Shown here in pieces: positions 10,305 to 36,827 of a stretch of 64,000 bases of DNA (positions are counted from its first letter, which is position 1; each line of letters begins with the position of its first letter). The DNA is from Ettlia oleoabundans (lineage: Eukaryota; Chlorophyta; Chlorophyceae; Chlamydomonadales): contig JAAMXP010000611.1 in the NCBI GenBank assembly GCA_019693395.1, positions 1 to 64,000 on the forward strand. Direction: 5' to 3'. The notes beneath the pieces are model-generated. The model was given only the letters and a program-made list of their open reading frames with translations. It was not told the origin of the DNA and searched no databases. A program made the position numbers and the translations under genes.

Positions 10305-13300
10305 ATGCCTCAAGTTCTAAGCTCGGCAAGAGCGGCCTCGTGCCGCACTTGCGTTTGCAGCGCATCGCATGCCGATAGTTTGCATCGATGTCAATCAGGG
10401 CAACACAAGCAGCCACAGAGAGCTACAGTCAGCAACGCCGCCACAAGGTGCCGCCGCCGGCGCCTATCCTTGTATGCCGCCACCTCCCCCAACGGTGAGG
10501 CGTCGCAGCTCTTCAGCAGGCCCACATTCGCTGATGCGAAGTGGTGATGTCCAACCCTCTTTCCGAGTGATAATGGAGAGCAGCAAGTGGGATTAAGGAT
10601 CGCGCCAAGGCACAATGAGACCGGTTGGGTTATATACCTTTACCAGTCGCGCAGCAACTCCGCCCACCGCAGCCGCTTATACCCATGCTTCACCTTGCCG
10701 CCCTCTTGCCACGCAGTGGACATCCGCACCGAAGGAGATGAGACAGTGATAGAGGCACACGGCCATGCCCTGAGGATTGACAGCAGTGGCAAAGTCGTTC
10801 TTGTAGGTGCTGGCAACGGAACCGTCGTGTATGCAGATGATTACAGCACCAGCAGCAGCAGCAGTGCAGCAGCGGCGGGCACACAAGGCGCAGCGCAAGA
10901 GGACGAGCCAGTTAGCGAGAGGACGGAGGTCATGTACCTTACAGGTGCGCTGCTTTCTGCCTGGGAAGGAGCAGTTGTGCACGCAGCAGTGGGACATGGG
11001 TGCATGCACCTCGCAATTTTGGTCCACAGTGGTGCACATGTGTAGCAGCATGAGCCGTTGCACCAGGCATGCTACATGCCATGCCCAAGTCAGCTCAGCA
11101 CAAGCTGTTGGTTGGCCCCGCCGCCACCTGAATTCCTCTGCAGGCCGTGCCAACGCGGTGCAGCGGCATTTCGAGGGCGCCATTGGCACCGATGACTTCA
11201 TGCAGCGGTTGGAGATGGCGCTCTACGCCTTTGGGTTCAACGGGGAGAACTCCATTGGTGTGTGAGGATGTGGCTGGCTGGCTCATTGTGGCCGCAAGGG
11301 AGGGTGATAGGCCAGCTGGTTGACAAGAAATGATGGACAGGACAACTGTGGATAAATATGATTGTGCGGATAGAACAGTCATGTTGCTGCTCCTTGTCTT
11401 ACTCATCGAGACAAACTGCCTGCAGTAATGTCGGCCGCCCACCCTCATGCTACTTGGTGTGCNNNNNNNNNNNNNNNNNNNNATGGTGAACCTGTGCCGT
11501 GATGAGGTGACAGTCACGCTGAAGCACCGGATTGAGCAGATCTTCGGCTCATCCTTCTCCACCAATGGCCTAGGGGGTGTGCTGACCTGCGGCAAGACTG
11601 GCATGGGCGCTGGGTTCAGCCACTCGCCTTTGTGCACTACTAGCGGCAAGGAGCGCTACGTCTTCTTTTCCTTCCCACACATCAGGTGGGGAGGCGACGG
11701 CTCTGGCAAGTGCAGCGAGTGTTGGACCTTCCTCTGGTTGCCATGTAAAAGGAGATATTTTGAGCATGTCTGGTGCACCTCGTTTTGGCACTCAGCAGCA
11801 TCCCACCCTGACCTGAGTCTCGCCCAGTCCCCAACCCCCGGCCTGCAGCATCAACTCTCGGGGGGAGGTTGGCCCCATGGCTCGGCCCGGCCGTCCCGAG
11901 GCCTCCTGTGCCTGCGGAGCGCTGATCAAGGCGTACAACGAGATCCGTACGCAGGGGCTCATGTGCAACTGCAAGATCCCCGGTGGTGAGCTCGGCTGCT
12001 GTGATTGAGCAACCCCGCTCACATCTCTGCCTGATACTCGTGCAGCTGCTAACAGCATGCCTCAATTGCTAGCCTAGCTCCCCTCGATCGTGCATGCACA
12101 GATGCACGATGGGGAGCTTTGTGTCTGCGCTTTGGTTGCCTCAGATTGCTGGCATGTTGAATTTTGGTGCCGCAGTGCACGAGCCGCTTGAGCCCGAGTA
12201 TTCGATACTGAAGCAGCGCATAGCACGGCGCCTACGGCACGAGGGCAACACTGACGAGTCGGTGAAGAGCCTGACACTGGGTGGGTGGATGGGTGCTTGT
12301 GGGTGGGGGCATGAGGGGTTGGCTGTCTGCAGCTGGATGACTGTAGTGGCTTCGTTCAGTGGCTGGCAAGCTTCACGTGGGCGGATGTGGGTCTCTGTTG
12401 TAAGCGAGGCGCTGGCTGGGTTGGGGCTGGTGGGGCTGAGTGCTGGCGGTGGCGGTGCCAGTGAAATGCCGGTGTGACGACGTGTTGTATGCCCACCGTG
12501 ATGCTTCACCTGCATTCTTTGCTGACCATATGCTCCTTCTCACGCTTCCTGGCACGGACTTGTGTGCCCACAGCGGAACTGACCAAGGTAGCTGAGCGCA
12601 CCATCACCGACGACCTGGAGCACCTCATCTCAAAAACGGTGGATGCAAGCAAGGCAGACTATGCGGGTGGGTGGGCGGGTTGACAGACCGTGAATGCCAC
12701 CAAAGCACGATACCCAATCCGTGGTGCATTGGCTGGCCAGCATCAGCGACAAGTGCCTTGTGGCAGTGGGATGCAAAGTCCGGATGTCAACCCTGCTACG
12801 TAACGGGCTTGTTGGGAGATGAGCATGCCTGCCAGCATCTTTGGGCCCCTACATACCTCGACACCCTCCTCTTTTGTTTCTTTTGGCCCTGCAGTGATCA
12901 CGGGTGTGCAGATCCACAACTGGTCCACAGCTTTTGAGGATGACTCGCCCAACCTTGAGTTTGTTGCACCCACGTCTGTGTATGTGGTGGTGGGCGGCCA
13001 AAAGACTCACCTGGACCTCTCTGCCATGCCGGTGCGTGCTGATGCTAAGCTTCATGAAAACAGTCATCCATGCTGGTGTATGACAGTGTATGTGGCTGGC
13101 TGGCAGCTCAAGGATGGGGCTTCTGCGCATCCACCTGCCTTCCTTTCAGACACACCATTTGCCTGCCCCATGCAGTCCGTGACGCCCCGCCAGATGCGCG
13201 CCATTGCGGGGCCTGCTGATGTGTGCAACCAGGGTGGTCAGACTCTGCTGCGGGAGGAGGCCTCACCATATGCATTTGACTCAAAGGACGCACGGCGGCG

Positions 13301-22164: not shown

Positions 22165-25100
22165 TCACTCGATGTCAATGATTTTGCTCAGCTTCTGCAA
22201 CCGGTTGAGCAGCAAGTCTCCTTGCTTAATCGTCTGCTGGTACAGAGCTGTCTTAACGTCGGCCCTGCATGAACGCACACGACAATATAGCACACCAAAC
22301 TAGAGAGGTGAGTGGGTGTTGGCGTAAAGCTAGCCGAAACTCTCGTAAGGGACATCTGTTGCAGCAGCCACCAGCAATATCTTGGCTTCCCTCTGCCCCA
22401 GCCAGCAAGATTGTGCAACCGCCCCTTCCCATTAGCCGGCAGCTCACCTGTTGGTCTCCACCACGCCCGCCACCTTGTCGATCTTGGCAGCCAGCCGTCC
22501 TGCCACAATGAAGTCAGCCTGCAACAAAATAAAAGGTGTGCTGAAGTGTAGACAGAGGCGCAATTCTGCTGGGCAGGCAGGCAGATTGAGGCTCTCCCAC
22601 CGAGCTGCTCCAACAACCAAACTCAGTAATCCCACGCTGCACTCATCCACCCACCCACCAGCTCCGCATCCAGGAAGTCTGTGGAGACGCCAAAGGTGGC
22701 GGCCATGGCGGCCAGCGTCACACTCTTGTAAGACTCGAGGAACTGGAACAAAAGGACGAACACAGGATACGAACCGACGTGTGAGGCCGAACCGACGTGT
22801 GAGGAATGGTCCCAAAGTATATACCAATAGCAGGGTATCGCTCGGGGCGCATTCTTGTTCCACCTTTAACATCTGGTCGACTAGTGCCAGCAACAGGTTC
22901 CAGGCAGAGATGCAGCTGCAGAGCGCTAGAAAGTAGGCTGGCTGTATCGTCCAGTTCCCCAAAGCGCCAGTCAAAAGTGAGCTTTCTGGCCACACGAAAC
23001 AAAGGGGTTTCCTCAACAACCATTGCTGATCTGATGATCTCTCGCAAGACTCCCCTCACCTGCATGTACGCGACCGCCCGTACCTCCCGCATGTAGTAGC
23101 GGAAGTGTGGGTGCAGGTACATGTCGGCGCGAATGTCGTCGGTCAGCCCTCTGAATGCCTGCAGCACCACAATTCAACAGGAAAAGAAAACAACTGGCTG
23201 CAAAATCGAACCGGTGGGAATGGTTGGGCCAGGAGCCAGAAAAGCCATGGTGCCAGCTATGCTCCTCTTGCACGAACCACCACCGAAGAATGCAACTGCC
23301 AAACCACCGGTCGTCTCAGAACAACGAGTTATACTGTCAGAGATTTAGGGAAACCGCATACATATATGCACTGGGCGACATGGCCTGCAGCACCCCCGCC
23401 CACCTTAAAGAACTCTGCATACTTGCAGTCGTAGAGCGAGGAGAGGAATGAGCGCAGGTGCGGCAGCGAGTCAATGACAGACAGAACCTCAGGGGAGTCA
23501 ATGACCTGACGAGGAAAGAGAAGAAAGGACGCAGGTATCACTATTAGCATATTTCTTGAGGAAAAGCTTGGATGAGGGATTTTGTGCCAGGGGTATTGCT
23601 ACCAACCAGCGAGAGAAACACAATCTGTCGAAACTGCCAGGGTTGTGCCGCGGCAAGGTTCGCCAGCAGCCTTGCACCCACAACCGCTGTAATAATACAA
23701 TATTTGCAGTCGTGCAGACATGCTGCTGAGGGGTACCCTGCTTGCCTGCTAGCCCCCAGCATCTGCTCACCCCAACCTGGCAAGCAATCAACTATCCGCA
23801 CGGCGCAATCTGCCTTTTTGGATGGGGCCAGCATGGCTATCCCAGCCACCTGACGGTTCTGGTTCTTTGCGAATTGCGACAAGTTGCAACGACAGTTGAT
23901 TCACCTTGCTCTTCAGCGTAGGGCGGTCCAGCGCCACCACCGCCAGCAGAACAGTATAAAATATACAGCGCTCATATGGCATCAGCTCGCCGCTGCAAAG
24001 GAAGGCACTTTCCGGATCTTAGGGTGTGGTGAGAGGTAAATCAACCACAAAGTAGTGCAAGGCGACCAGGAACCTTGCTTTTGTTGCCTTCCTGCACCAT
24101 CAATTGATGCCACTAGCAGCGCAGGCAATTCAACTCAAAACCAGCCCCACCCCGCCCTTCACCTGGTGAATGTGGCAATGGCATCAAGCAGCAGCTCTGC
24201 AGCGCGCTTAAACTGGCGAGTGGCCATATAAAAGACGGCCTCATAAACCTGAGGGCACCAGTGCAGGCAACGCAATTATTGGGTAATGAGGAACAAGATT
24301 AACATGGCGGCAGAAAATGTGTGGTGCGATGCAAATAACAGTTGACGGCAATCAATGCTTTTAGCAACCTGACTTACATTGCCATGAGTACGTGCCAGCA
24401 TACAAGATGCATCAGCTTTGAGCGCATTTCTGACCACCACTGCAAAAAGCTGGCCAGAAGCCCACCTTGAGCTTGTTTTTGCGCTCCCAATCGCCCCCCT
24501 TGTCGCACAGCGCCCGCGCTTTCTCAAGCCCAGCCTTCACCGCTCGCCAGTCGCTGCGGCTCAGCTCAAGCCTGCGTGCGGGTTGAGGGAAGGGACGAGG
24601 TAGGCAGCCAGGTGGTGGCCATGGGTCAATGTTTGTAAGCACCCTGCCACTACCTCCAGCTACAATCCCATCATTTGAACACATGTTAAACATAAGCACA
24701 GCTTTGAAATAGCAGTAATGCAAGTATTCTAAGTCGCAAGCATGGCAAGCATGGCTGGTCAGTCAACATGCGGGGATATGGGAGCGCCAGGCGTGCACTG
24801 TTGCACTGGTGCTGCATCCCCTTGCAGGGGCGCCTGGATTTGCTCTTCATGCTCCAGCAAGCCAGCACCCACCTGATTTGGCTGAAGGCAAGATCCATCT
24901 TGGGTCCCACACCCGCTGTCTTGGCTTCTGCCGCTGTGTATGCAGCCAGAGCTGCTGCGTGATCGCCAATGCTGCAAAGATAGTCGGCTCGTGCCTGCAG
25001 AGCATCCCGCACCTCCACTTCTCCGGCGTTGGCCTCTGCATGGTACACAGTTAACGTTGGAAGTGACGAGGCGACCAGAAATGTTGATTGGGAACACCCA

Positions 25101-25657
25101 TGCCAAGGGTGCACTACGGCGGTATGGCAGTCCCGCAGGCTTCATCAGCTTGCACAAAAGCTGCCGAGCACGCATGTTATGCCTCTTTCAGCTCACAACC
25201 CCTTGACAGCCACTCACCTGCGTCCTTGATCTTTTCATCCAACTCGGTCAGCTGCTTGGCGTTGCGCTCCCGCATCTGTTCCAGCGCTGCAGCGTTGCCG
25301 CTGACCCCTACCTCGGCACACACCTCCTCATACATTGGAGCCATGTCTGCATGAAGAGTATCGATGCACAACAAGAGCATGAAATACAACTGGATTGAGA
25401 GTGCAGAACAGACCTAAGTTGCTGCATCGCCCGCCCGCTGACCCACCATGGGCCTGCAAGAGGTTGACGATGTCTTGCTGCAGCTGGGCCCGGTCATCCA
25501 CAGGTACGTCTTGGGTCCGGTAGAGGAATCTCTACATGACGGAGGGACAGGATGGGTCAGGCGGGGCAAGACACAACCGAGCGCAAGGTGATCACGAAGG
25601 ACTGACCTTGTGGGCGAGCACCACCTTGAAGTCCTGCTCCTCCTGTTGCTCCCCCAT
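22165..25657 (-). CDS. RPN7: 26S proteasome regulatory subunit RPN7 (PSMD6)
   Basis: This is a lid subunit of the 19S regulatory particle. Twelve exons close to 387 residues, the usual RPN7 size: 25657-25607, 25531-25447, 25346-25218, 25035-24873, 24571-24466, 24248-24163, 23992-23905, 23505-23404, 23158-23060, 22742-22659, 22518-22448, 22264-22165. The N-terminal half has the helical repeats ([72 protein letters not shown]). [20 protein letters not shown] and YDCKYAEFF follow, then the C-terminal PCI/winged-helix part ([49 protein letters not shown]). The start at 25657 is the first ATG before the [17 protein letters not shown] exon. It is divergent from the RSH fusion gene. Confidence 0.96.
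22771..22804. repeat. 18-bp tandem duplication
   Basis: The unit GAACCGACGTGTGAGG(CC) occurs twice back to back inside an RPN7 intron. It looks like a recent slippage duplication with no visible function. Confidence 0.85.
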
Positions 25658-25985
25658 TCTGCCGATGGGCTTCAAGCCTCAGGTTGGTTCCCGATCACCG
25701 ATTCTCACTAAGGCAGCTGCAGAGCTGGTTGGCCCTGTAGAGTTTGTGGATGAGCAGACGTACTTTGCCGCAATGCTGCGTACGATAACGGCTGCATCAG
25801 CCAAGCGAGCTCAGTACCTCGGCAGCAAGCACTACAAATCGGGATACATCCCGTGCACCACTGCACCAAGGCAGGGAATCAAATTTCTTGGCAGTGTACC
25901 TGATTGCTGCCTACCAAGAATGGCAGGCCAGGTGCACTGCGGCCCGCAGCCAGGCCTTGGCCGGCCTGTGGCGGGCCGGCTGCAC
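25658..25985. promoter_or_regulatory. Putative bidirectional promoter, RPN7 (-) / RSH fusion (+)
   Basis: About 330 bp lie between the chosen divergent starts, or about 450 bp if the RSH gene starts at 26106. No TATA box is obvious. The frame upstream of the RSH start is open across part of this region, so the 5' limit of the RSH gene is uncertain. Confidence 0.45.
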
Positions 25986-28900
25986 ATGGCAACAGCAGGA
26001 TTGATTTTGAGGCCTGTAACGCCCATGAGGGAGGAAGCTCCTACCACCAGCGGCCGAGCTCCCGCAGAACGCCTCCTACCGCCCAGACGTAGCTCCTCGC
26101 GGTCTATGGCCTACTTACAGCCATCTGGACAGCTTGTAAGTAATCTGCATGGCAGCATACGCGCGTCCACTGGCTGCGAACGAGCACTGTGGACGGCCAC
26201 GCCGTGCTTGCGCCCTGCGAGCGCCGCCACCTACGCCTTGTGTTGCGCTGTTGTAGCTATGCTGCCGGTGCCAACTTGAGACCTCGCTGCTCCTGCAGGA
26301 ATCTTTGGACCCATCACAGCACGAAAACAGCGGGTCTGCACTACAACATCGCTCCGCGGCACTGGTGCCAGCCGCGCCCGCTGGCGGGACGATGGCAGTG
26401 GCTCCTTCGAGAGCTGCTGCCTCTTCGCTGGCGGTGCAGGAGCAGGGTGGTGCCAGCCTGCTGCAGCTGATGGCCGCGTGGGACCAACTGGCAGCACGGC
26501 TCCCACCTCAGGCGGGTGCAGGGCGTGCAGCCGAGGTCATCTTGAGTGCGCTCAAGCTGGCGCTGGCTTACAGTCCTGCGCCAGCGCCGCTGCAGACCAG
26601 CGCGGCAGCAACGGCAAGCAACAGCAGTAGCAGCAGCCATACCGACGAATTGCAGCAGCAGCAGACAACACTCGCTCGCCCTGTGGCACGTGCCCTGTCG
26701 CTAGCTTCCCGCCTTGCTGACCTGGCAGCAGCTGGGCTGCCAATTGATGCTGAGAGCATAGCTGCAGGCATACTTGCAGAGGTCCTAACTGGTGGTGCGT
26801 ACTCACAGCCGCTCCCGGCTTGGGGCTCCCGCCCCGGGAGCACTACAGCTCGCATCTGCGCTGGCCGCAGCGGTTTGACACTGCAGGTGGTTGAGGAGCG
26901 TGTGGGTCCCATTGTGGCGCAGCTGGCTCATGACATACTGCGGGCACGGCAGCTGCCGGCACGGGTTGAGCTGCTGGACGACACAGCCGCCAGGTGTGAG
27001 GCACACCCCTCATTCTGATGGTGTGTGCTGTTGCCTCAGTATGCTGGCTGTGCGCCGTGCACCATGGAAAAGGCACCGCTGGCAGCCAGCACCACTAATT
27101 CGCTGAGCTAGTGCTGATGCATGCTTTGCCCCTTGCCTTGTTCCAACTGGCATGCCTTGTGTTCTGCAGCGCATTGCGTGAGCTCTGCCTGTCCTTTTAT
27201 GATGTTCGAGCTACCGCTGTTGAGGTGGTCAGCCGCTTGGATGTGCTGAGCAGGTGCGGTGGAACTCTTGTGCGTGCTGCTACTGTCAGAATGGGTGCGG
27301 GTTGTTGCAGTTCTCGGTTGCCCTTCCTTGCTGCCAAGCCCCCATGCATATCTGACATGCACTGATACCAAACACGGGACCCAAAGTTGCGTAATTAAAT
27401 ACTTGCCATTCTTTCCCCTGCTCCGCTGTTTTCCTTGCCTACTTGCAGCTCTGATGGGCTGCCCAGCTACGAGCAGCAGGTTTGTGCCCTGGAGGCATTG
27501 CAGATGTACGCCCCCATGGGCCACGCCTTGGGTCTCACTGCGGTGGCTGCCCAGCTGGAGGACCGATGCTTCCAGGTGAGAGCGAGTTAGGCCGAGATTA
27601 GGCGGGAGAAGAAGCGGCTCACTTGCCACGCTGTTCCTCCATAACATGCTTTGCTTCGTGGTAGTGGCTGGCTAGGACGGGTTGTGGGTCTTGGAGTAGA
27701 TGGTGTCCCTCTCCTATTTCGCAGCCCCCTGCAGCATTTTGTCAGCCCCACCATCTATATGCGCACTCCACCCGGCATTTCCAACCGACCGACCACCGCC
27801 CTCGCACGCTCGTTCGTAGATATTATTCCCGGAGAGCTACCTGCGCACCGCGGCGTGGCTGCGGGAGCAGGCGGCAGCCAATGCGGAGGTGTTACAGCGG
27901 TGCCAAGCAGCGCTAGAGGCCGCAGTGCGTGCCCAGCCGCGCTTTGCTGAGCTGGCTGCTGGTTTGACGGTGACTGGCCGCACCAAGTCGCTCTTCTCCA
28001 CGCTAAAGAAACTCTTGCGGCTGGGCAACACGGCAGCAGGAGGCCGCGCCCGTACCCAGCTGTATGATTTGATGGGCCTGCGTGCTGTGGTGCACCCTCG
28101 GGATGACCTGCCGCCGGTGAGTCATTGCAGCTGCTGCAGCCACTGGTGATGCTGCTGTGGTTCTATGTATTATGTTGCACGCTGCATTGGACAACAGTGT
28201 ATGATGGTGTTCACTACGTTGGTGGGCTGCAGGAGGAGGCTGAGGCACTGGCAGCAGAAGCGTGTTACTTAGTGCGGGATGCCGCCTTCCAGTTGTGGCC
28301 GCCGGTGGCTGGGCGCTGCAAGGACTACATTGCTGCACCCAAGTCCAACAGCTACCAGAGCCTGCACAGCACTGTCAGGTGAAGCTTAGGGGTGGCAGTC
28401 AGTAAGCATTGGGGGACACTATGCAAGACGCAGTAGGTGGCGAGTTCATGTTGTGCTTTTAGGGAACACTGAACGCACACTGCTCTATGGGTGTCAACAT
28501 TCTAGGGAATGAAGATGAGAACCTTATCAAAACGCTGAGGTATGCTATGCTGTGATGCTGCTCTACAGGGTGCCCTCTGTGACAGTGAGCCTGGACCCAG
28601 AGGGCGGCAGCGGGGAGGCTGAGGTCAGCAGCCATGCAACGCTGGAGCTGCAGATCCGCACACAGGGTGAGGCACATTGATTTAAAAGCATTCATGTGAT
28701 TGTTGCCGGCTTGGACTTTGTTTGGTTGCGTGTCCTTCAATGTGGGAGGCATGCTCGAGCAGCTTGAAACTTAGGGCGCGGCATGCAAAAGAAAGCATAC
28801 CCACATGTCGTCTAGTGTACGCATTCATGTCAATAATTGCACGTGGGCTTGCACTCCTGCCCTGCAGCCATGCACGATCGGGCAGAACGCGGCGAGGCGG

Positions 28901-31900
28901 CTCATGCGGCGTACAAGGGTGGCTTGGACGCAGCTCAGGCACTGCAGTTGAAATCTGTTACCGAGGTTGTGTTGCGACGCACAGCAGCCGCAGCCGCCGC
29001 CAGCGCACGTGCCGCCCTGGGCAGCAGCGATGCTGCAGCTGAGGGCCTGTTCCGCCACTTAGACCAAAACAATGACGGGCGCATCAGGTGCAGAAACCTT
29101 GCCATCGGCGAGCGTGGCTGGCGTGGGTGGTGCGCGGGACAAATACAGTAATACGCTACCTTGCTTGTGATGATGCTCTCGCAGCCAAGGCCAGAGCGGA
29201 GCAGAATAATGCTTTGCCCCTATCTCACATCTTACATTTTCCCTGCATTACCTGACCCCCCTATGCTCCCTGCATAACTCATCCCCATGCATTGCTGCGC
29301 TGCGCCATACATGTGGCATGCTGTGCTGCAGCCTGGAGGAGCTTCAATTTGCGCTGCAAGAGCTCGGGGTGCAGGAGGCGCAGGCACAGAGCCGCGCGGC
29401 ATCGGAACTGCTGCAGCTGGCGGCAGCAGACGGTGGCGAGGGCGGAGATGGCACCATTGGGTTTGAGGCGTTCATGGCTTTCCAGCGAAGGGTAAGCAAG
29501 GAATGGTGAAGTTGGTGGCAGATTTGCCAGCTGCCTTTTGTGTTTGCAGCCAGGCATGTACCTCAAGGTCACTTGAAGGGCAAGTCTCACATAAGCTGCC
29601 GATGGCTAAGTGGTGCAGTGGAAGCTGAAGTGTGGTGCAGTGCACCAATTGCATTGCCACCTTGCTGCATGGTCACTCACGCCATGCGCATTGCTTGCTG
29701 TCTGCCTGGGGTGCAGGTGGGGCTGCTGCAGGCCCTGTCCTCAGTAGATCACCAGCAGGCACACCTGGTGGAGCAGCAGCAGCAGCGGGAGCAGCATCTC
29801 AGTGAGACAGCGGGAATGGCGGCCAGCCTGTGTAGCAACTATCCCAGCAGGGAGGGCATTGCTGGCACACCCCCGGGCATCAGCGATGGTGCCAGCAGTA
29901 GCGGCAGGCTGGCAGCCGGTGCGTGCCGGGCGCATGGCAGTGGCAACTCGCTCTGCTGGCAGCCAGCTGGCGGGCAGCAGCTTGGCGGCAGCTGGATGCG
30001 GCCATGCGGGCGCGACGCCGCTGTTTCTGCCCGAGCATATCTAGAAACTAGCAGCGCAAGCACCAGCAGCAGCGACAGCAGCATGGATGAGGACGGTGGC
30101 AGCAGGAGCCATGCCGGTTGGGCACCCAACGGCAGCGCTGTGGCTCTGCAGAATCGCCGGCATGGAAGCAATGGCAGCAGTAGTGAGGGCGCCTATGAGC
30201 ATCCCCACAGCGGTAGCAGCAATGGTTCAGCACCCTCGACCCCGCATGCAGCAGGAACAACTCCGGAAACACTGTTAGCAGGCAAAAAGCTACTTCAAAA
30301 GCCGGAGCGGATGCCGGTTCCTGCCGAGCATCCAGCGGGCCATGCCCTCACAACAGCCGAGCCGGATGCTGCTGCAGCAGAAGCTGCATCTGGTGACAGC
30401 AGGCTAGGGTGGGGTGGCTCGAGAGTTGTACAGGGAATTATGCGGCTGATGGGGCAGCAGGGCACGCCGCCCGCTGCTGCCACTTGGCAGCTAGTGGCCA
30501 CCGCAAACAACCCCCACCGTGTGTTCAATGCAGCGGGTGGGGTGGTGCCTCCCGACACATGCGGGCGGCGGCAGGTGCTGCGGCTGCCCGACCTCGGCCC
30601 CTGTGTGATTGGCGCTGTGTTTGACCGGTGAGCCGTTGAAATGACGCCCACCGTGAGTTGACCACTCCCATGAACAATGCGGTTATGCCGCTCTGGCATG
30701 CTGTTGTGTGCATCGGACCTTTATCGCAGCTTTTCTATCCCTTGGTTGCCCTCGTTGTGCAACACCCCCCCCACCNNNNNNNNNNNNNNNNNNNNNNNNN
30801 NNNNNNNNNNNCCCCCCCACCCGTTGCTTGCAGCGACTGCGACTATGTGCTGGATGTGCCCACTGTGTCGGGGCGCCACGCTGTGCTGGAGGTGGTGCGC
30901 CGACCCGACGCACGGGGAGGGCACAGCAGGCTGGTTCTCACAGACCTGGGCTCAACCAATGGCACACGCATAAACAGGTGCGAGTGGGAGGAATAGGTGG
31001 CGACCGGGTGATCCAGGGTGCGGTAATGTCACGTTGAGGTCTTGTGCCTCCGTGGTTTTTATGCTTGCTGAATGTGTGTCTCATGGCTGCTATTTCATTC
31101 TTTTTGGTTCTCGTGTCATTGCAGGGCCCCCATCCAGCCTGGAAAGGAGGTGACCCTCCACCCCGGTGACCTGGTGTGCCTAGCAGAGGGGGACATCACA
31201 TTTGAGGTTCAGGTGCTGCCACCCGAGCTTCCTTCACCCGCCGTGGCAGCCAGCAACGGTATGTCAGCCAGAGCAGCAGCAGTGGCGCCCAGCCGTGCGG
31301 GCCCAAGTGCTGCAGACGTCCCAGCTGACGCCAATGGCAGCCACTCCGGCTTCAGCAGCAACCATGTGGGCGGCATTGGGAGCCTAGCAGAGGTGGAGGA
31401 GGCCCAGCAAGCAGCTGCCACGCTGCCGGCGGTGGTGGCGGCACTGCGGCTGGCGGGGGTGCTCGAGGCTGCGGCTGCAGCACAGGGCCACTTTCCTCCC
31501 GGGGGTGCCGTCTATGCAGACCTGCAGGACCGTGCCCGCCAGCTCATGACGGCTGGCAGCCACGACCAGGCGCATGCGCTGCTGCTGGCAGGAGTGATGC
31601 AGCAACCATGGCAGGGAGGTGCGCCATGCAGCGTTTCGCTTCATGCTGCGGGCTGGCGGTTTGTGTGCTACGCCTGGCTTCCCTCGAAGGCTTTCTGTCA
31701 TTGGTGCACATTTCCTGATTCACCCTCACGCAGCTATACTGAGACCACCCTAGTTTGTGCGTGTTTGTGTGTGATATGGGGTCTGGTGGGTAGGGGGAGG
31801 GGTGCCTTGTGGCCTCCCTACTTTTGGTTATATTGCAACCTGCCTTGCCTCCCACTTGCCAGCAGGCCTGTGGTCCCAGCTGGCCAATCTGGAACGGCAG

Positions 31901-33500
31901 CGTGCGCGGCTAGGCGGGCGGGGGGCCAGCTATGGCGTGGCGCGCTCATTCTACGCCGCCGCAGCCGCCTGCTTTGCTGCTCTGACCCCAGCGGCGGCGG
32001 GCGGCGCGCTGCGGGCTGAGGCTGAACGTGCCGAGGGGCTTACTCGCACCCTGGGTGGCTGGGCTCAGCTTGAGTTAGCCATGGGCCTGAGGGGGCCGGC
32101 GCACACGCTTTTCCGCAAGGGTGTGGCGGCAGCGCAGCGGCACCCTGTGCCGGGCGCGGGTGGTTCTGCTGCCGCACGCCTTCTCTTCACGTGGGCTCAT
32201 AAGGAGTGGAAGGCTGGGGACCCTGCCCAGGCACAGCGGCTGTGCGCTGAGGCACTTGAGAATGAGCCAGACAACCCCTTTGCGCTTTGCCTGCTGGGCA
32301 ACATTGAGGCGCGAGCGGGGCAGACGCACCTGGCCCGCCACCTGTTTGAGCGAGCCCTAGAGGCACGCCCGGGCTTTGTGTCGGCGCTGCAATCGCTGGC
32401 ACGGCTGGAGGCCTCGGAAGGTGCGCTGCATGGATGGAGGCTCAACGGTGTCTGGTCTTGAGCAGTCTCTGATTGCTGGAAGCAGAGCCTGTGTTGCCCG
32501 CTGCTAGCCTGTATCGCTTGCCCGCCTGCCTGTCCCTGCTGTAACTTGCCTTCCTCAAATTCCACATCCGACATTGCTTTGACAGCACTGTATCACATGA
32601 TTGATTGTTGCTTATGCTGTTGAAGTCCTCCAACATCCCCCCTCCTCCTTTCCCTGCTGCAGGCCACCTGCATCTCGCACGGCCGCTCTTCCAGCAGGCT
32701 CTCCGTCAGGAGCCCACCAACGGGCACGTGCTGCAAGCCTGGGCGGTGGCAGAGGCACGAAGGGGCGATCGCGAAAAGGCCCGCGCGCTGCTGCGGCGCT
32801 GCACAGCGGCAGACCCCAAGTGCCGCGCTGCCTGGCACGCCTGGGCGAAGCTGGAGGAGCAGGAAGGCCACGTGGAACTTGCCAGGAAGCTGTATAATGC
32901 CGCGCTGGGCGTAAAGACAGACTCGGTGCCCACGCTGAGTGCGCTGGGGCGGCTGGAGCGGCGGCAGGGGCGTCTGCAGGAGGCGGCAACGCTGCTAAAG
33001 GCTGCACTGGCTGCCGAGCCACACCACGTTCCTGCTATGGCTGAGCTGGCGCTCACCCTGGAGGCGCAGGTGGGTGAGGGATCGTTGCATGGTGTGGTAT
33101 GTGGGAGGCCAGGATGGTGGGAAAGGTATGCACAGATTCTGAGCTCGCAGTCGTCGGTGTGACAGTCGGGTAGGCAGATGGGCAGCAAGGCAGGCTTGAG
33201 CGAGGTGCTTCCCGGGATACAGACCAAACTGCAGAAGGGCTGGTTATGGCTGTTGCACGTAAAAGTGGGCTGAGCATTGCACCTGGTATAAGTCCATTGG
33301 TGATCTCGCACCCACTCATGCTTACTCTGCAACCGCTTGCGCTTGCCTTGTGTGTGCAGGGCAACTTGGTGGAAGCGCAGCGGCTGAGCAAGGCGGTGCG
33401 TCGCCTGAATGCCAGCAGGCGTGCCTCTTTGCATGAGGTAGCCACGCAGAAGTTGCCCACGGGAATACAAGCCACGCCCTCTCAGCCTCAGCACGCTTGA
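25986..33500 (+). CDS. CRSH: RelA/SpoT homologue (CRSH-like) fused to EF-hands, FHA domain and HAT/TPR array
   Basis: Fifteen exons close to about 1,542 residues: 25986-26135, 26299-26993, 27170-27253, 27449-27575, 27820-28116, 28233-28378, 28569-28666, 28868-29087, 29332-29491, 29717-30627, 30834-30977, 31125-31618, 31866-32420, 32663-33069, 33360-33500. Order: transit-like N-terminus; degenerate HD region (AGILAEV where hydrolases have a His-Asp pair); (p)ppGpp synthetase at about 375-570 (GRTKSLFSTLKKLLRLGN, LYDLMGLRAVV, CKDYIAAPKSNSYQSLHSTV, LELQIRTQAMHDRAERGEAA); a canonical EF-hand (DQNNDGRISLEE) and a weak second one (GGDGTIGFEAF); a 280-residue Ser/Gly/Ala linker; an FHA domain (VSGRHAVLEV, LTDLGSTNGTRIN, CLAEGDITFEV); then about ten HAT/TPR repeats (AWAKLEEQEGHVELARKLYN). 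The first parts match plastid Ca2+-activated RSH, predicted to make ppGpp. The 911-nt exon 29717-30627 joins the EF-hand part to the FHA start, and 31125-31618 joins FHA end to the repeats. The start may instead be 26106. Confidence 0.9.
30776..30811. other. Assembly gap (36 N) in an RSH-gene intron
   Basis: The gap lies wholly in the intron between 30627 and 30834. The splice donor (GAC CG|GTGAGC) and acceptor (GCAG|CGAC) on either side are intact and their phases match, so the gap does not break the model. Confidence 0.95.
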
Positions 33501-35377: not shown

Positions 35378-36827
35378 TGGTCCTTGTCCTTCCTGTTGTT
35401 GCTGGGCTTGCTGCTGCTGCTGTTTTTGCTGTGTTTGCTGCGCCTGCTGCTGCGCCTGCTGCGACAGTTCATCCAGAACCCGCAACAGCGAGTGCACGTC
35501 GTAGCACCGCCGCACCTCCACGAACTTCAGCGGCCTGGTAAAATAGTCCTGCAGATGGGGCACAAGCAGTGGCCAAATGGAACCACAACACAGCAAAGCA
35601 CCAGTCAATGTAGCATCAGGTCAGGCAAAACAGACTGCACCAGGCAGCCCATGCAAAACAGGACAAAGCCAACGCAGGCAGCCAACTGAAGGCGAGACAG
35701 CACGCTCACCTGCAGCACGTCTGCACCTTGACCCGCCTGCTGCTGCTGCTGCTGCATCACTTGCCCCAGCCGCCGCCCGCTGAGTGCGTTGCTGGTGTCC
35801 ACATACACCACCCGCAGGCCTGACCGGGCTGCATGGGCTGCTGCTGCAAGGCACAGCTGGGTCTTGCCGGATGCTGCAGGAACGGTGAGGGTGATGAGAT
35901 GTTGAGAGCACATTTTGCTACGCTGCCGCCGCTTGAACTAGGGGAGCATGTCCGAGCCTAGAAAACGCAAAGAAATGCCGTTGTGGGCCTGCATGCACGA
36001 TCTCAGCCAGCCAGCCCGCTTCCATCAACTTTTCAGAATTCTAGCTGCCACCCACCCGACTCTCCGCAGATCTCCACCAGCTGACCGCCCCGAATGCCGC
36101 CCCGCAGCAGCTCTGAGTCAATCCCCTCACAACCCTGCAGCTAGGGGAGCATTCACGGGTAAGGCTGGGACTTGGGTAGGCTAACAGGGGTGGTGGACAG
36201 CAAAGTCAACATGCAGCAACGGTTACGGCTGCAGTGGTTTGTGGCGATGGCTGCTACTTGGCAGGCTGTCAGGGTGGCCCGCTGGGCAACAGGGCTCTTA
36301 GCCTGCTGCAGCAAAGTCTGCAGGATTCATCTGAACAAAGGCTGCATTAGGATGCAGGCAGGGTGGAGCACTTGCCGTCTCCAGCAGTCGGCAGGCCGAC
36401 AGCTGCTCGTACAGCTGTGTGCCGCTCAGCACCGGGGGCGCATACTTGCGCTGCACCTCGTCATACAACGTCTGAAGCGCCTGCAGCCTCAAATCATCCA
36501 CCGAACATTGTGCAGCTTCATTAAGCTCAATAATTCATCTGTGTTGCTGGACCACTCAGTGGGAAACAACTAGGCTCGCGTTTGCACCCACACGACGAGT
36601 CCAGCTGTTTGTAAGATGCTTGCAACAGCCGCCATACTAAGCTGTGACCCCACCTCTTGTTCCGGTGGGAGCACACCGCCCTCAGCGTGGGCCAGGGACT
36701 CAATATTTGTGGTGAGGTAGGCCTCGACTGCAGCGTGCAGCGAGCTTGCGGAAGAGGCACGGTGAGCACGACACCGCCCAGCGGCAGGCGCAAGCGGAAT
36801 GAGCGAGCCAACAGGACGGGTCCGCAT
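34508..36827 (-). CDS. RAD51D: RAD51D, RAD51 paralogue for homologous recombination
   Basis: RecA-like ATPase of the RAD51-paralogue complex acting in recombinational DNA repair. Seven exons close to 396 residues: 36827-36654, 36525-36376, 36134-36056, 35873-35710, 35548-35134, 34854-34755, 34616-34508. KYAPPVLSGTQLYEQL matches the RAD51D linker (human FPVNGADLYEEL). Then come GGIRGGQLVEICG, Walker A (GESASGKTQ, split across two exons), VVYVDTSNALSGRRL, Walker B (GLLVVDCLSALITPILGGGQ), AVLVTNHMVGG and PAMGESW. A poly-Gln insert sits between LLRVLDEL and the Walker B strand. The N-terminal exon (36827-36654) does not clearly align with family members and is the least certain part. The intron after 36376 has a GC donor (ACG|GCAAGT). 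Confidence 0.88.
35327..35470. repeat. CTG/CAG repeat tract encoding poly-Gln
   Basis: Several CTG (minus-strand CAG) runs, the longest around 35347-35374, lie inside a coding exon of RAD51D. They encode about 45 residues that are mostly Gln, interrupted by Ala, Lys, Thr and GQGP. The frame stays open, so this is a translated expansion and not an intron. Confidence 0.9.

Follow-up and report, generated by a model that had tools for sequence, protein, structure and literature searches.

The window analysed here is a 64,000-nt stretch of Ettlia oleoabundans DNA (contig JAAMXP010000611.1, forward strand), and our subject is a gene on its + strand (25920-33500) that encodes a ppGpp synthetase of the RelA/SpoT homologue (RSH) type, extended by an EF-hand region, an FHA domain and a tail of HAT/TPR repeats. 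Fifteen exons, separated by introns that all carry GT-AG boundaries, close in one frame and give a final protein of 1564 aa. Eight combinations of exon boundaries keep the frame open, with differences of one codon at two acceptors or at the very C-terminal end. Homologues point to the acceptors at 28233 (exon 6) and 31866 (exon 13), and 31866 is more likely than 31863 as the start of exon 13. For the start codon, the in-frame ATG at 25920, 66 bases upstream of 25986, is the most likely choice, because the 22 codons that it adds can be aligned to the N-terminal end of the Chlorella vulgaris homologue P0001. The frame stays open through the 300 bases examined upstream of 25920, and the choice of start therefore rests on homology. 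An earlier note on this DNA had described a fifteen-exon gene, which stands; its start at 25986 gives way, by homology, to the position named above.

Exon 1 (25920..26135; all exons lie on the + strand) carries the start codon and the N-terminal region and is 47% identical to C. vulgaris. A degraded hydrolase (HD) domain begins in exon 2 (26299..26993), runs through exon 3 (27170..27253) and ends in exon 4 (27449..27575), the last two each 93% identical to C. vulgaris. The ppGpp synthetase follows in exons 5 (27820..28116; motifs GRTKS and YDLMGLR), 6 (28233..28378; KDYIAAPKSNSYQSLH) and 7 (28569..28666; LELQIRT) and ends in exon 8 (28868..29087), which also holds the first part of EF-hand loop 1 (DQNNDGRISLEE, approximately 29062-29087). 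The remainder of this EF-hand, and a degenerate second one recognised by alignment of its loop, lie in exon 9 (29332..29491). Exon 10 (29717..30627) consists mostly of a low-complexity linker (confidence, pLDDT, <50 in the structure model of the relative P0024) and has the first FHA strands at its end, where the FHA profile matches. The FHA core (VSGRH, STNGT) occupies exon 11 (30834..30977; PF00498, 39.5 bits on the exon), and exon 12 (31125..31618) contains both the FHA end and the start of the repeat region, as read from Pfam and the FHA profile. Repeats matched by TPR families fill exon 13 (31866..32420) and continue through exon 14 (32663..33069; Pfam and homologue alignment) into exon 15 (33360..33500), whose open frame holds the last repeat and the stop codon and shares 20/46 residues with C. 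vulgaris. Identity to C. vulgaris is 62-93% across exons 2-9, 45% in exon 10, and 85, 53, 66 and 59% in exons 11, 12, 13 and 14. A Pfam scan, run on a 1543-aa version of the model, placed HD_4 (46 bits; cut-off 27.2), RelA_SpoT (76; 27), EF-hand_1 (25.6; 25.4), FHA (51.1; 20.7) and TPR_2 (61; 27) above their thresholds, and the previously described order of synthetase, EF-hand, linker, FHA and HAT/TPR was recovered.

One gene in a conserved family

A homologue search with the 1543-aa model, its scoring limited to the 7984 candidates with the most words in common, returned 23 proteins. According to precomputed Pfam lists, 16 of the 23 carry RelA_SpoT, EF-hand, FHA and TPR in one protein, among them those of Chlorella vulgaris, Micractinium tetrahymenae, Parachlorella kessleri, Nannochloris (P0006, P0009), Myrmecia bisecta and Coccomyxa. 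The nearest relative among the 23 is C. vulgaris P0001 ('putative GTP diphosphokinase CRSH1'; 59% identity over the full length), which has the same domain types and differs in having small insertions and a linker that has diverged further. Of the remaining seven, P0018 has the loop without an EF-hand model; P0011 lacks EF-hand and FHA models, yet the loop and two FHA halves are there; P0019 (Trebouxia) has a degenerate FHA; P0020 and P0021 have no synthetase; P0022 consists of RelA_SpoT and EF-hand only; and P0023 is a bacterial TPR protein.

It could be argued that two adjacent genes, one for a CRSH and one for an FHA-HAT protein, were merged by our reading or by the assembly. A 36-N gap that the earlier note did not mention (30776..30811) lies entirely within intron 10, the gene model comes from genomic sequence only, and four proteins (P0020, P0021, P0024, P0025) show FHA and repeats without a synthetase; these are possibly partial models, and P0024 starts without Met. 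Against this, no gap occurs within six residues of any of the 14 junctions when the protein is aligned with C. vulgaris, and single four-domain proteins are found in several genera. The FHA domain itself spans the N gap, its sequence running unbroken from GAVFDR to DCDYVL as compared with GAVYDKDCDFVL; an assembly artefact at this point is unlikely because the FHA continues across the gap in frame. TGTAA, the poly(A) signal of green algae, is absent from 26136-32539, which is a weak argument given that ~3.9 occurrences are expected by chance and 5 were found in the 8.5 kb scanned. A two-gene merger thus appears very unlikely, with next to no probability left to it. The alignment with Micractinium shows a one-residue gap near intron 3, and most of exon 1 is missing from that model. 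The earlier arguments for a single gene in closed phase, with an FHA too continuous through exons 10-12 for accidental merging, are borne out, and the homologues are far from always being two separate genes.

Two products of one Sphagnum magellanicum locus tag (P0068 and P0080; 1356 and 920 aa) share their first 806 residues. The shorter product skips ~210 linker residues, resumes with a stretch of 102 residues that is found identically in the tail of the longer one (1017-1118), and then stops, which suggests alternative splicing of the tail at this locus. As the two products share core and tail residues, core and tail form one transcription unit there as annotated.

The catalytic half of the protein has the pattern described for RSH4/CRSH, in which the synthetase is conserved, the hydrolase is degraded and EF-hands lie C-terminal to the synthetase (PMC10107265, PMC6881373). 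Among solved structures, 6s2t (E 3.2e-37), which we take to be Thermus Rel, matches the sequence best. Its AAGLLHDTLE reads AAGILAEVLT in our protein, so that the HD pair of the hydrolase is replaced by Ala-Glu; this stretch alone scores only 3.2 bits in the alignment to 6s2t, and the family alignment agrees with the replacement. All four synthetase motifs are kept in the alignment, and with RelA_SpoT at 76 bits and EF-hand_1 above its cut-off the claim of a CRSH-type synthetase with an EF-hand held up. In an RSH tree of 46 rows, in which land plants were represented by CRSH-like rows of moss and liverwort, the protein grouped with plant and green-algal CRSH, joining C. vulgaris and Micractinium (100/100) inside a clade of 33 rows (100/99) in which the named members are all chlorophytes; several forks of this tree are weak or unresolved. 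Some homologues carry names such as 'CRSH1, chloroplastic'. Judged by sequence, the gene is an RSH4/CRSH orthologue and not a new system or a new kind of RSH. The same genome has a second RSH gene on contig C239, which matches two separate regions of P0085 (Micractinium conductrix RSH, 1821 aa) in the manner of tandem RSH copies; P0085 could be a gene-model merger.

Plant CRSH shares the degraded hydrolase, the conserved synthetase and the EF-hand after it (PMC10107265, PMC6881373). In the description consulted (PMC10107265), it has two EF-hand domains in its C-terminal region, and FHA and TPR are not mentioned; the Ettlia protein has one degenerate EF loop and adds the linker, the FHA fold and the HAT/TPR tail. 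The EF-hand loop noted previously is thus present as one canonical loop accompanied by a degenerate second one. Loop 1 is canonical in all tabulated relatives that reach it except Tetradesmus P0071, where the loop tabulation found none. In the streptophyte rows, and in many of the trebouxiophyte ones, loop 2 is canonical as well, but it is degenerate in our protein, C. vulgaris and Micractinium, and control by Ca2+ through one site only is plausible. Of the two Volvox africanus proteins (P0074/P0075), P0074 has its EF-hand loops close to the C terminus, at 1189 and 1225, which is ~370 residues past the end (821) of the synthetase region used in the tree, and its Pfam list is without a HAT tail.

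The earlier statement that no RSH with this domain set had been described is too strong, since full orthologues, some of them named CRSH, are present in databases. The extra domains have also appeared in print: Avilan et al. 2019 cite Ito et al. 2017 for C-terminal TPR domains in green-algal RSH4 and assign a 'forkhead domain' to Chlorella variabilis RSH4 (PMC6881373), and a 2022 review describes domain acquisition as frequent in algal RSH4 (PMC10107265). The 'forkhead domain' is presumably the FHA of this family, and by this description green-algal RSH4-TPR proteins, including that of C. variabilis, very probably share family and architecture with our gene; EF-hand, FHA and TPR together in one reported protein go beyond what the consulted text confirms (PMC6881373). 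We found no functional study of a fused synthetase-EF-hand-FHA-TPR protein in the literature searched, with Ito 2017 and supplementary tables outside that search. The gene is a correctly read member of a conserved family that is apparently unstudied in function.

FHA domain and repeat tail

The FHA fold is recovered in the structure model of P0024, which matches the DDL FHA 3vpy (rank 43, E 5.5e-6). The position of the canonical phosphothreonine-binding Arg, however, is occupied by Ala in our protein, and across 34 family rows including it by Ala (25), Gly (8) or Met (1), never by Arg; the rows are not independent, as close copies (P0006/P0009; four Trebouxia-type rows) are counted. In the alignment, the Gly-Arg of MDC1 and kanadaptin stands opposite Gly-Ala of the Ettlia FHA. 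The column of MDC1 K73 is Gly in 26 of the 29 readable rows (Arg, Asn and Ala occur once each), and five of the 34 rows could not be read by the pattern. As a control, nine other FHA matches in the genome were considered, of which six were readable: four had Gly-Arg (L011, L012, L013, L019) and two Gly-Ser (L016, L021), the Arg position being unreadable in L017, L018 and L020. The FHA fold is kept, and the usual phosphate-binding chemistry is missing.

The Arg is described as critical for recognising phosphothreonine, and substituting it abolishes FHA-dependent interactions (PMC11326605). As Arg is missing in 34/34 family rows, docking onto phosphoproteins by the usual FHA mechanism is unlikely, and the docking proposed in the earlier note is weakened accordingly. 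With the MDC1 K73 column mostly Gly as well, canonical phosphothreonine docking was rejected as the default. An FHA fold without basic phosphothreonine-coordinating residues is also known from Afadin (AFDN), which is described as binding its partner without phosphate (PMC9355967). Afadin is an animal protein of unrelated architecture, and its likeness to the algal FHA is one of analogy, not homology of function. In four rows (P0019, P0056, P0057, P0058; three of them named Trebouxia) the FHA can be aligned and has no intact Ser-x-x-His and Asn-Gly-Thr motifs; this FHA is, as far as its motifs indicate, decaying.

Tandem hairpins of ~34 residues, as expected of a HAT/TPR superhelix, were found in the tail by Pfam, in the P0024 model and among structural neighbours. 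The superhelix is modelled confidently in P0024, a truncated relative, as 16 helices or eight hairpins, and ~3 further hairpins were read by eye in the Ettlia sequence past the end of P0024, for a total of ~11; the 'about ten' repeats estimated previously are a fair count. The top structural neighbours of the P0024 tail are TPR superhelices, and the spliceosomal chain 8h6j_4G first appeared at rank 50 of the structural list, which should not be read as evidence of absence. In the Ettlia tail, TPR models score higher than HAT models (TPR_2 61 bits vs HAT_PRP39_C 25, below its cut-off of 33), and HAT models exceed their cut-offs in the relatives P0066-P0069 and P0071.

The best matches of the tail are other CRSH tails. 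Streptophyte CRSH tails match it at 1e-36 to 1e-25, the non-CRSH HAT protein P0029 at 4e-24 and the Tetradesmus tail at 4e-22. In a tree of 36 rows, the 22 CRSH tails and three HAT proteins (P0029-P0031) were separated from 11 other TPR proteins (98/99); streptophyte tails grouped with the three HAT proteins. HCF107 and MBB1 are stand-alone HAT-TPR proteins, and a helical repeat arm with HAT-like features is common to them and our protein. They are described as RNA-binding factors (PMC8635915), and the likeness to the Ettlia tail was drawn from description. The same genome has a separate HAT-type repeat gene at C7:32942-34039 (L009, L010, L014), ~36% identical to the CRSH tail, which is a candidate MBB1/HCF107-like factor.

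Proposed role and origin of the docking arm

The trigger and the plastid location of synthesis of the alarm signal ppGpp are still being worked out. We propose, with a probability of roughly 0.7, that the protein makes ppGpp in the plastid in response to Ca2+ and has a docking arm. The enzyme would act in the plastid, and Ca2+ at the EF-hand would turn on synthesis as in plant CRSH. The linker, predicted to be disordered in a relative, leads to the FHA fold and then to a HAT/TPR superhelix of ~11 hairpins, which may serve as the arm that carries the synthase to a partner. Because the phosphate-binding Arg is missing throughout the family rows examined, the FHA fold most likely aids this docking without phosphothreonine. 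Having both a Ca2+ loop and a docking arm that is conserved, an RSH of this type would offer, through the partners of the arm, a direct handle on plastid ppGpp synthesis, and the missing Arg weighs against the obvious phospho-signalling hypothesis ahead of bench work.

Several observations weigh against this proposal. The degenerate EF-hand 2 of our protein, C. vulgaris and Micractinium could mean that Ca2+ control is weakened; the tail is missing from the Pfam lists of the Volvox, Sanguina and Haematococcus models and is therefore not needed everywhere. The tail tree splits the CRSH tails, placing those of streptophytes with the three non-CRSH HAT proteins (81/93, 90/91); many branches of this tree are long. 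Furthermore, most rows have, near the FHA phosphate loop, an Arg or Lys two positions ahead of the conserved Cys/Asn that could compensate for the lost Arg. A working phosphothreonine reader, docking the synthase on phosphorylated plastid proteins through this shifted residue, would also fit the SxxH and NG motifs retained in most rows. We consider it improbable, given the composition of the two columns described above, the effect of substituting Arg (PMC11326605), and the shifted residue itself, which P0010, P0016, P0017 and P0059 lack and which is displaced in the four Trebouxia-type rows.

The arm may, alternatively, bind plastid RNA in the manner of HCF107, MBB1, NAC2 and MAC1, with ppGpp made at a particular transcript or ribosome. 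Chlamydomonas HAT-TPR proteins bind 5' untranslated regions of plastid mRNAs (PMC8635915), and the C terminus of bacterial long RSH proteins contacts ribosomes (PMC10107265). The HAT models that pass in P0066-P0069 and P0071, and the position of the HAT-type P0029-P0031 as the nearest non-CRSH kin of the tail among those compared, speak in the same direction. The higher TPR score of the Ettlia tail, its nearest listed folds (protein-binding TPR superhelices) and the separate HAT-type gene in the genome speak against it, and RNA binding, which the earlier note had raised, remains for us a tentative idea. The view that this lineage retains the FHA and the tail only as remnants without a function seems highly doubtful: the FHA is degenerate in Trebouxia-type rows and the tail is missing from Volvox-group models, but the reading frame is open through both, and exons 11-14 are conserved at levels under most catalytic exons and over the linker exon.

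With regard to origin, 221 proteins were retrieved with a profile built from 12 homologues, and the distribution was read from the best 120 of these. RelA_SpoT, EF-hand and HAT/TPR without FHA were seen in Mesostigma, Klebsormidium, Riccia and Sphagnum; Volvox models had RelA_SpoT, plus EF-hand where complete, and no TPR (Pfam lists); and the Tetradesmus model had RelA_SpoT and HAT without EF-hand (Pfam list). A profile of the algal FHA, run with filters off, gave no match in the streptophyte range P0066-P0072, nor did a permissive Pfam scan of seven proteins (P0070 outside it; best 25 families for the longer ones) give an FHA match there. In the RSH tree, FHA-bearing rows make up most of the named-Trebouxiophyceae clade, joined by P0061/P0063 beside Chlorophyceae (95/82), with class assignment checked for Micractinium, Myrmecia and Tetradesmus. 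This suggests that the FHA was gained in the stem of these chlorophytes and was lost or decayed in several lines, its date being uncertain. The tail may predate the FHA, which was confined to chlorophyte-type relatives in what was examined, and a single ancient origin of the CRSH tail is possible. Two details may be new, namely the HAT/TPR tail without FHA on streptophyte CRSH and the FHA without the phosphothreonine-binding Arg across the family.

A broader scenario, which we regard as speculative and rather unlikely, starts from an ancestral CRSH of green plants that made ppGpp and was anchored by a built-in HAT/TPR arm to plastid RNA, a ribosome or an assembly factor. Chlorophytes would have added a phospho-independent FHA module, and the arm would have been lost in vascular plants and in volvocaleans. 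In that case the short Arabidopsis CRSH would be a reduced form, and the algal protein would show the original placing of Ca2+-driven ppGpp synthesis.

Neighbouring features

Upstream, a divergent neighbour at 24686-25141 (-) matches the 26S proteasome subunit RPN7 (PF10602, 42 bits); its start, placed by eye, lies ~260 bases from that of the CRSH gene, which it would bound on this side. Downstream, a frame at 35605-35937 (-) contains a P-loop-like stretch (AASGKTQLCLAAAA) and resembles, by eye only, a RAD51-type ATPase; Pfam gave it a weak IstB match below the cut-off. Besides the 36 bases at 30776-30811, the window has a run of N at 11463-11482 (20 bases).

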